Positions 45,532 through 49,765 of a DNA stretch of 64,000 bases are shown here, piece by piece. Under the pieces are notes generated by a model. It worked only from the letters and a program-made list of their open reading frames with translations, made no database searches and was not told the origin of the DNA. How positions within the stretch are numbered: the stretch's first letter is position 1; every line of letters begins with the position of its first letter. The position numbers were made by a program, and so were the translations under genes. The stretch covers positions 248,001-312,000 of the forward strand of contig NZ_VCQU01000007.1 of NCBI RefSeq assembly GCF_012932915.1. Reading direction: 5' to 3'. This DNA comes from Antrihabitans stalactiti (GTDB lineage: Bacteria > Actinomycetota > Actinomycetes > Mycobacteriales > Mycobacteriaceae).

Positions 45532-45870
45532 GTGACCCGAACAATTGACACAACCTCGACCGAGCGTGGCGTCGAAACGGCTGAAAAAAAGCTGGCGGAG
45601 TTGCGGTCCGAACTCGACGAACTGGACCACAAACTGCTCGACGATGTACGAAATCGTATCGAGGTGTGCGCCCAAATAGCATTGCTGAAGGAAAAGCACG
45701 ATATTCCGATGCTGCAGCCTGGGCGAATGCGATTCGTTCACGAACGTGCGCAAAACTACGCGCGAGCGCACAACCTCTCGCCTGAATTCCTGCGTTCTCT
45801 TTACGACCTGATCATCGGCGAGGCGTGCCGCGTCGAGGATCTGATCATCGACGGCCTCGGACGGAAGTGA
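45532..45870 (+). CDS. papB: 4-amino-4-deoxychorismate mutase (AroQ-fold, PapB-like)
   Basis: GTG 45532 starts a 112-residue AroQ-class mutase. After a short tail the three-helix fold is clear: LAELRSELDELDHKLLDDVR, RIEVCAQIALLKEKHDIPML, QPGRMRFVHERAQNYARAHN, LYDLIIGEACRVED. The IPMLQPGR stretch replaces the acid-and-arginine loop of chorismate mutase in the way seen in PapB/CmlD-type enzymes of aminodeoxychorismate pathways. It should convert 4-amino-4-deoxychorismate to 4-amino-4-deoxyprephenate. The fused ADC synthase gene begins three bases downstream, and the dehydrogenase and N-oxygenase follow, all coupled. Confidence 0.85.
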   Translation: MTRTIDTTSTERGVETAEKKLAELRSELDELDHKLLDDVRNRIEVCAQIALLKEKHDIPMLQPGRMRFVHERAQNYARAHNLSPEFLRSLYDLIIGEACRVEDLIIDGLGRK

Positions 45871-45873
45871 TCC

Positions 45874-47952: not shown

Positions 47953-48821
47953 CCGCGCGGCACGTGACAGTAGTTGGTGGATGCGGATCGATCGGTCGGC
48001 TCCTCCTTCCGCTGTGGGATATCGACGGCACCCGTCTGGTCGTGGTCGATCGAGTTGTAGGAACGGTCCCCGCCACTGTGATCGTCGGCGACATCACCGC
48101 ACCGACCCCCGACGTCATTGAAGCGGTCCGCGACGCTGACATCGTTGTCCTCGCGCTGCCCGAATCCATTGCCCTGCAAGCGGTGTCGTTCGTCGCGGAC
48201 AACGCGTCCCCAACTGCGCTGCTCGTCGAGACGCTTTCGGTGAAGTCACACATTCACCAGCGCATCGCGAGAGAGGCACCACACCTGCAGAGCGTCGGGA
48301 TCAACCCGATGTTCGCGCCGGCCCTCGGTTTCTCGGGCCGCCCGGTCGGTGCGGTGGTCCACCACACCGGGCCTGCGGTCGCACCGTTTCTCCACGCATT
48401 GACCAGTTGCGGCGCGCGCGTGGTCGAACTGAGCGCCGACGAACACGACCGTCGTTGCGCGGCAACGCAAGCACTGACGCACGCGGCAGTCCTGACGTTC
48501 GGTTTGGCGCTGGCGAATCTCGGGGTGGCAGGTGAGGAACTGACCACGATCGCTACCCCGCCGCACAACGCGATGCTGGCGCTCCTGTCGCGCGTCGCGG
48601 GTGGTCTCCCCGAGGTGTACTTGGATATCCAGAGCGGCAACCCGTATGCCGTCGACGCCCGCAAGGCTTTCGCGTCGGCTGCGGCGGAGCTGAGCGATGT
48701 CGTCGACCGTGGCGGCGAGCGTGAATTCGGCGAATTGATGACGCGCGCAATGAGTCCGCTCGCAGACCAAGGCGAGGCGTTCCGCGCTACCTGCACGCGC
48801 ATGATTGCGGCACTGCCGTGA
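47949..48821 (+). CDS. papC: 4-amino-4-deoxyprephenate dehydrogenase (PapC-like)
   Basis: GTG 47949 overlaps the synthase stop (GTGA). The 290-residue protein is a prephenate-dehydrogenase-family enzyme: N-terminal dinucleotide fold VTVVGGCGSIGRLLLPLWDI, then DIVVLALPESIALQAVSFVA, the catalytic-histidine region GINPMFAPALGFSGRPVGAV, and a helical C-terminal domain with EHDRRCAATQALTHAAVLTF. It should convert aminodeoxyprephenate to p-aminophenylpyruvate with NAD and CO2 release. The pathway context (mutase and ADC synthase upstream) makes this reading more likely than tyrosine synthesis. Confidence 0.87.
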   Translation: MTARHVTVVGGCGSIGRLLLPLWDIDGTRLVVVDRVVGTVPATVIVGDITAPTPDVIEAVRDADIVVLALPESIALQAVSFVADNASPTALLVETLSVKSHIHQRIAREAPHLQSVGINPMFAPALGFSGRPVGAVVHHTGPAVAPFLHALTSCGARVVELSADEHDRRCAATQALTHAAVLTFGLALANLGVAGEELTTIATPPHNAMLALLSRVAGGLPEVYLDIQSGNPYAVDARKAFASAAAELSDVVDRGGEREFGELMTRAMSPLADQGEAFRATCTRMIAALP

Positions 48822-49765
48822 TGCCGCCAACGCTGCCCGACTACGACCGCGCCGATCCGGTCGAAAGCGCAATCATCAACGGACTGGTCCGGACGTGGGG
48901 CCACCGGGCGACGGTGCGCAAACCGGAAGTCGATGTCGACGACCTCTTCGATCCTGCGAAGGCGGACTACCCCGAAGAACTCATTCCCTTCCACACCCAC
49001 GATCGCTATCTCGCGCTCGACGAGAACACCCAGAACCGCGTGCGCGCCTGGGCATGGATCGCCTACAACAAGAACGTCATGGACATCGAGCAATACGTGG
49101 TCAACCCCGGCTTCGGGATGTTGTCACGGGACGAGTTCGGCGTCGGATTGGGCGACAAGCACAAGATCGCGGCAGTACAGGCGATGGTCGACGAGGAGTA
49201 CCACACGCTGATGCACCTCAACGCCAGCGCGCTCACTCGTCGGCGCCGGCAGTGGACCTTGTCCGACTCGCTGCTGCCGCGAAGTCGCACCGTACGAGAA
49301 CATGACGCAGACTTGGCCACCGCTGCGCCGGGCCGCCCCGCGGCGATCGTGCGGCTCGCCTACACCGCGGCAGCGGAGACGTCGATCAGCAGCTATCTCG
49401 CCTTGATGAGCGAGAACGACGCCATCCAGCCCGTCAATTGCGCCACCGTCGCGATGCATCGTCGCGACGAACTATGCCACTCGTCCGTTGCGGGTGAGCT
49501 ACTCAAAATCGTCTTCGGCGAACTGGATTCCGACGAACGCAGGCAATTGATTGCCGCGCTCACCACCGCGGTCGAAGCGTTCACCGGAAGCGACTTCTCG
49601 ACCTGGGCCGCGATCCTGCACGCAGAGCGCATCGAAGGCGCCGACGAGATCATTCGCGACGCCGAGGCCGAAGCGGTAGGCCACCGAGTTGTTCAGGACT
49701 GCAGTGCAATTCGCAGGCTTTGCCGCGACCTCGGCGTCGAGCACGAGTTGGCTGTCCGCTGGTAG
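48818..49765 (+). CDS. AurF/CmlI-type diiron arylamine N-oxygenase
   Basis: GTG 48818 overlaps papC by four bases (an ATG follows directly). The 315-residue protein is an AurF-like diiron oxygenase. All seven iron-ligand positions known from AurF are present with matching spacing: E91 (DIEQYV), E126 and H129 (DEEYHTLMH), E187 (AAAETSIS), H214, E218 and H221 ([11 protein letters not shown]). Enzymes of this family oxidise aromatic amines to nitro groups using oxygen. Placed after PapABC genes, the likely substrate is p-aminophenylpyruvate or p-aminophenylalanine. Substrate level (acid, pyruvate or amino acid) cannot be read from sequence. Confidence 0.9.

Follow-up and report, generated by a model that had tools for sequence, protein, structure and literature searches.

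An aminophenyl-precursor and N-oxygenase operon of Antrihabitans stalactiti that may act in trans for a humimycin-type lipopeptide synthetase

The PapABC enzymes of chloramphenicol biosynthesis together with CmlI form the same enzyme set as that encoded by the operon described here. Obafluorin biosynthesis likewise relies on three genes (obaDEF) leading to 4-aminophenylpyruvate and on an AurF relative, ObaC, which is 25% identical to AurF; it differs in that its product is a beta-lactone (PMC5490192). The label 'corynecin' has been given to clusters of R. erythropolis (100%) and Prescottella R16 (40%), and the operon is present in R. qingshengii and in Prescottella, a likeness by label. The humimycins, proposed to inhibit the lipid II flippase (MurJ), were predicted from NRPS sequences and then synthesised, although one review (PMC7502451) names them with the compounds that have been isolated from Rhodococcus. 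Humimycin A is composed of Tyr-Ser-D-Tyr-Phe-D-Thr-Val-Val and an acyl chain (PMC12024397); it was predicted from IupU of R. equi, and the accessory genes reported for humimycin clusters encode an amidohydrolase, an N-acyltransferase, and MbtH (PMC5550956).

We analyzed a 64,000-nucleotide stretch of the draft genome of Antrihabitans stalactiti (26 contigs), hereafter the window. A sequence-only reading had placed four overlapping or nearly touching genes at 45532-49765, and both their coordinates and their order were borne out (Table 1). The papB and papA genes are separated by 3 bases, and the papA/papC and papC/aurF pairs overlap by 4 bases each. A DUF1348 gene (49776-50243) begins 11 bases past the aurF stop; it was rejected as a fifth operon gene, its protein having no match in the 40 loci picked for gene-order reading (see below). 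Given the draft state of the genome, the aurF/DUF1348 junction could be an assembly error. An Rfam scan of window positions 36000-58000 for an RNA leader gave no match at the gathering threshold, a search for flanking repeats around the operon returned just weak two-copy repeats, and no empty site was found in relatives, the matching window flanks being scattered in three congeners. Four window proteins that had no annotation were compared with PADLOC, with 0 matches.

Table 1 Features of the operon, with positions counted within the window.
Feature	Position	Strand	Start and size	Assignment
Gap upstream of papB	45192-45531	+	340 bases	Presumed promoter/leader
papB	45532-45870	+	GTG start, 112 aa	Predicted AroQ-type 4-amino-4-deoxychorismate mutase
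papA	45874-47952	+	692 aa	Fused PabA-PabB, predicted 4-amino-4-deoxychorismate synthase
papC	47949-48821	+	GTG start, 290 aa	Predicted 4-amino-4-deoxyprephenate dehydrogenase
aurF (CmlI-like)	48818-49765	+	GTG start, 315 aa	Predicted diiron arylamine N-oxygenase

PapA combines the Pfam domains GATase, Anth_synt_I_N, and Chorismate_bind, and it contains the motif PIKGT, whose lysine is found in 51 of 52 homologs. Taking PIKGT versus PIAGT to distinguish aminodeoxychorismate (ADC) synthase from anthranilate synthase, this motif points to the former activity for PapA. PapB matches Pfam CM_2 (5.7e-17); its top NCBIfam model, TIGR01803 (CM-like), which we assume covers PapB, scored 68.9 bits, below the cut-off of 73.35, so that PapB falls outside this family as formally delimited. 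In an alignment with the E. coli chorismate mutase, using the homologs found in 44 of the 80 named loci treated below, R28, K39, and R51 are kept in all 44 homologs and R11 in all 43 that align there, whereas the positions of D48 and E52 are occupied by Q and by V, M, I, or A, respectively, in 44 of 44. We take the arginines and lysine to be anion-binding residues and D48 and E52 to contact the 4-hydroxyl of chorismate; PapB thus appears to be adapted away from that hydroxyl, in a comparison that included no characterised PapB as positive control. PapC matches Pfam PDH_N and PDH_C and has an asparagine in place of the HPMF histidine seen in 2pv7 and 5t9e, as do 69 of 69 homologs, whereas the other TyrA of the genome keeps the histidine (GGHPM). 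These features set PapC apart from prephenate dehydrogenase, again with no characterised PapC as positive control. Enzymes of these kinds are also encoded elsewhere in the genome, with three CM_2 matches, one PDH_N match, and another fused PabAB (G000:C12:228863-230872) that shares 51% identity with PapA, indicating that the operon copies are extra. Altogether, the active-site residues of the operon enzymes fit amino-substrates rather than chorismate and prephenate.

The oxygenase passes the cut-off of the Pfam AurF family (3.7e-50). Among PDB entries it is nearest to CmlI, with 234 bits to 5hyg (1.7e-68) and 154 bits to AurF. On the PDB alignment, a glutamine occupies the position of AurF Arg302, a residue that we presume to have a role in AurF. 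The entries 5hyg and 5hyh contain one and the same sequence, and 5HYH is named as CmlI in PMC13108848. The seven diiron ligands (E91, E126, H129, E187, H214, E218, and H221) are invariant in 14 of 14 aligned sequences, including that of the window; the reference for this set of four Glu and three His was AzoC, as printed in PMC6783550. The score against NCBIfam NF045603 (4-aminobenzoate N-oxygenase) was 184.8 bits, far under the cut-off of 620, and an assignment as the aminobenzoate enzyme itself was therefore rejected. The four enzyme families named in the sequence-only reading (mutase, fused synthase, dehydrogenase, and diiron oxygenase) are thus supported by Pfam and NCBIfam, and the p-amino/p-nitro-phenyl pathway that it predicted gains support from the PIKGT motif of PapA, the active-site changes in PapB and PapC, and the seven diiron ligands.

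A survey of 301 genomes sampled from the family detected AurF homologs in 96, which belong to 7 of 31 genera. From these matches, 40 loci were picked for gene-order reading: all four genes occur in order in 34 (one with aurF split over two frames), papC-aurF only in 3, and aurF only in 3. Among the 80 named loci, which are the best of 135, the full operon is likewise found in 44, and the recurrence of the arrangement in both sets indicates that it does not result from chance. The sequence-only reading had suggested looking in relatives for the same gene order and for an NRPS in range, and the latter is present as well: within the flanks read, 37 of these 44 loci (from the best 80 of 135) carry an NRPS, 1 gives a partial NRPS signal, and 6 have none. 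In 2 of the 6 (Prescottella subtropica and R. tukisamuensis) an NRPS lies further out, and the other 4 are Gordonia. For scale, the stretches within 10 kb of condensation domains make up 6.8% of the A. stalactiti genome; the 37 of 44 loci to be set against this value are related and not independent, and no probability is claimed. NRPSs of other kinds adjoin the operon in R. wratislaviensis, R. koreensis, Rhodococcoides fascians, and R. corynebacterioides.

Variants of the arrangement were observed among the same named loci, the best 80 out of 135. In 24 of the 80, many from the Rhodococcoides fascians group, papC-aurF occurs without papA or papB within 7 kb (L127, L131-L134, L136-L138, L140, L141, L143, L144, L146, L150-L152, and L154-L161); another NRPS lies in the flanks of 20 of these, and L133 is a short contig. 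None of 11 Streptomyces/Nocardia loci has papB or papC beside aurF, and in 8 of them (L167, L170, L173, L174, L177, L182, L184, and L190) aurF is followed by a papA-like gene, as expected of a route from p-aminobenzoate to p-nitrobenzoate. All four named Gordonia loci (L162, L163, L169, and L183) carry the full operon with no NRPS in the flanks read. No NRPS was seen in wider Gordonia stretches of 60 kb and 40 kb either (L065/L269/L270 and L067/L271); within the stretches read, the Gordonia operons are stand-alone cases besides that of the window.

In the nearest relative, Antrihabitans sp. YC2-6, papB lies head-to-head with a giant NRPS. A search of the A. stalactiti genome with the first 1,799 residues of that NRPS retrieved a match on contig C25 that is 82% identical over 1,782 residues and scores 3226 bits, compared with 1371 for the next match. 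The corresponding gene (C25:114234-141056) encodes 8,940 aa, which are 83% identical over 4,764 residues and 82% over 4,174 residues to the two frames in which the YC2-6 NRPS is read (G015:C1:131539-158400), between which lies a single in-frame TAG. Both the AurF and the PapA trees place the window as sister to YC2-6 (supports 100/99 and 100/100). In the AurF tree the pair falls within a clade of 23, and the other 21 rows comprise 12 with seven- or six-module NRPSs, 5 that were read incompletely, and the 4 Gordonia operons, which nest beside the operon of Rhodococcus sp. RD6.2, whose genome has a seven-module NRPS. As the window and YC2-6 are sisters in these trees, the simplest history is probably that operon and NRPS were inherited jointly and then separated. 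The intergenic regions of the two genomes are similar on the NRPS side (262 bases at 75%), and the comparison on the papB side gave chance-level similarity only.

Within the genus, AurF is present in 2 of 4 genomes, those of A. stalactiti and YC2-6. For the NRPS N-terminus, YC2-6 has the 82% ortholog, and one AurF-less genome (G042) a 53% relative; the other (G061) has just partial NRPS matches among the matches listed. The G042 relative is a six-module NRPS (G042:C34:259991-281203; L226 and L227), indicating that this type of NRPS is not strictly dependent on the operon. Its module-3 code ends in Ala, and those of seven operon-bearing six-module NRPSs have Glu there. Upstream of the C25 NRPS, a dihydropteroate-synthase-type gene lies between genes for proteins of 599 and 313 aa; we considered it for self-resistance and set it aside, as its position recalls what we take to be the housekeeping order fadD6-folP2-gpgS. 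Two secreted-looking proteins are encoded at window positions 7295-8026 and 8069-8821, the latter without a Pfam match. Both resemble a small secreted protein downstream of the C25 NRPS, which has relatives next to Prescottella NRPSs.

The sequence-only reading was right that no NRPS is adjacent, and this holds well beyond the window, since none of the condensation-domain matches of the genome lies on C24, the 405-kb contig that carries it. From this absence it had suggested that the product may be a free nitroaromatic such as p-nitrophenylpyruvate or p-nitrophenylalanine; a corynecin-like derivative would be a further candidate for a truly stand-alone operon. The Gordonia operons, with no NRPS at the four named loci (from the best 80 of 135) or in the two wider stretches, are in line with that proposal, as is the report of chloramphenicol-like corynecins from a Rhodococcus (PMC10819586). 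We nevertheless regard a free product as unlikely, given that the NRPS adjoining the operon in YC2-6 has its ortholog on C25 in the same genome and that the Gordonia operons nest beside that of RD6.2. A search for a CmlA-type hydroxylase (CmlA_N) in the A. stalactiti genome also gave no match (0 of 1 genome), in a search where no control genome gave a match either. The earlier interpretation is therefore retained for the enzymes and the p-amino/p-nitro-phenyl pathway and is not favoured for the free nitroaromatic. In comparison with chloramphenicol, the likely partner here is a seven-module lipopeptide synthetase and not CmlP.

Comparison with the other NRPS domains of the genome gave the order Cs-(C)-A1-C-A2-C-A3-E-C-A4-C-A5-E-C-A6-C-A7-TE for the C25 NRPS, with the TE assigned by motif. 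Both E regions score above the cut-off of TIGR01720, which we take to mark epimerases, unlike three further C-type domains that were scanned. The specificity codes, with positions set by motif against the GrsA positions, are DALFVGAVVK (A1), DVWHFSLVDK (A2, Ser), DALFAGAVVK (A3), DALFIGAVVK (A4), DFWNVGMVHK (A5, Thr), DGFFVGGVMK (A6), and DAFFIGGIQK (A7). The same seven-module layout was found in ten further genomes (in two frames in YC2-6); the NRPS of G162 runs past its stretch and that of G094 has no Ser module. A six-module relative occurs in seven operon-bearing genomes, its codes differing from those of the seven-module enzymes, and the remaining genomes have different NRPSs. In a FastTree phylogeny of 224 A-domain sequences (some of the A. 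stalactiti domains entered twice), the A1 and A3 domains of the seven-module NRPSs group together in a single clade (support 0.973; 26 tips, including one duplicate), in keeping with humimycin A, for which the same residue type was predicted at positions 1 and 3. The A. stalactiti A4 domain falls inside this clade and joins the Antrihabitans module-1 pair (support 1.0), suggesting that module 4 took on the specificity of modules 1 and 3 in Antrihabitans.

To our reading, DALFVGAVVK resembles a tyrosine code. It is also present in an NRPS on contig C21 of A. stalactiti that is unlinked to the operon and in an operon-linked NRPS of a Rhodococcus-group genome (G258), so that the code alone proves nothing. 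The operon could in principle serve the C21 NRPS or another one of the genome (C23, C1, or others) rather than the humimycin-type enzyme, and the 11 merged NRPS regions of this genome, as well as the unrelated NRPSs adjoining the operon in other Rhodococcus-group genomes, leave room for such a partnership; we give it little credence, however, because it is the C25 NRPS that is orthologous to the operon-linked NRPS of YC2-6, by the wide bit-score difference given above. The chemical form in which the operon product is used might also differ. The first C domain of the C25 NRPS scores best against MxcG and EntF, which take an aryl acid, as if the operon supplied an aryl starter. A nitroso or hydroxylamine group coupled to an azoxy compound is another such form, and AzoC, 53% identical to CmlI, makes a nitroso group for azoxymycins (PMC6783550). 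Both forms seem very improbable: PapABC yields an arylpyruvate and not an aryl acid, and the starter domain of humimycin NRPSs has been interpreted as pointing to acylation of the first residue (PMC5550956).

The C25 NRPS, which lies outside the window, shares the layout underlying humimycin A: a starter C domain, seven modules, Ser at position 2, Thr at position 5, E domains in modules 3 and 5, and a TE, the last recognized by motif only. In Prescottella equi DSM 20307, we read 12 NRPS frames, some of them cut at contig ends, and among these the humimycin layout is found in the operon-linked NRPS only. This NRPS is preceded by genes for an amidohydrolase (PF07969), an N-acyltransferase (LNT_N/CN_hydrolase), and MbtH, so the operon adjoins a humimycin-type cluster with the reported accessory genes in this species. 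A motif search for the iupABC transporter genes, which according to locus tags (PMC2947987) should lie some 27 genes away from iupU, detected none of them in the 158 kb surrounding the P. equi NRPS or in the other P. equi NRPS stretches read, and the identification of this NRPS as IupU consequently rests on layout and accessory genes. Neither an amidohydrolase match nor an MbtH motif was found in the stretches read around the two Antrihabitans NRPSs, and we therefore call the A. stalactiti system humimycin-type by layout. It also differs from the humimycin clusters in having operon and NRPS on different contigs, and from the humimycins themselves, which were synthesised from predicted Tyr and Phe, in the p-amino- or p-nitro-Phe proposed here.

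In our assessment, the operon likely supplies, in trans, a precursor for the assembly of a humimycin-type lipopeptide, its substrate and product being deduced rather than observed. PapABC and the CmlI-like enzyme would make p-amino- or p-nitro-Phe for the C25 NRPS, and these residues would probably be placed at positions 1 and 3, and here also 4, of the lipopeptide. We lean, with some reserve, toward the broader proposal that p-nitro- or p-amino-Phe occupies positions 1 and 3 of natural humimycin-type lipopeptides, in Antrihabitans also position 4, that the operon was overlooked in the work that predicted humimycins and synthesised them with Tyr and Phe, and that operon and NRPS became separated in the genome of the window. 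The main text of PMC5550956 makes no mention of aminodeoxychorismate, N-oxygenase, aminophenyl, or p-amino. A literature search that covered few subscription papers found no report of p-amino- or p-nitro-Phe in humimycin-type peptides, nor of p-nitrophenylalanine together with nonribosomal and N-oxygenase. Trp is tolerated at positions 1 and 3, with an MIC of 8-16 compared with 8 µg/mL for humimycin A against S. aureus ATCC 29213 (PMC12024397).

If the proposal is correct, the native humimycin-type products would differ from the tested molecules at residues 1 and 3. The arrangement in A. stalactiti would moreover suggest that precursor operons can become detached from their assembly lines, in which case the absence of a neighbouring NRPS says little in favour of a free product.
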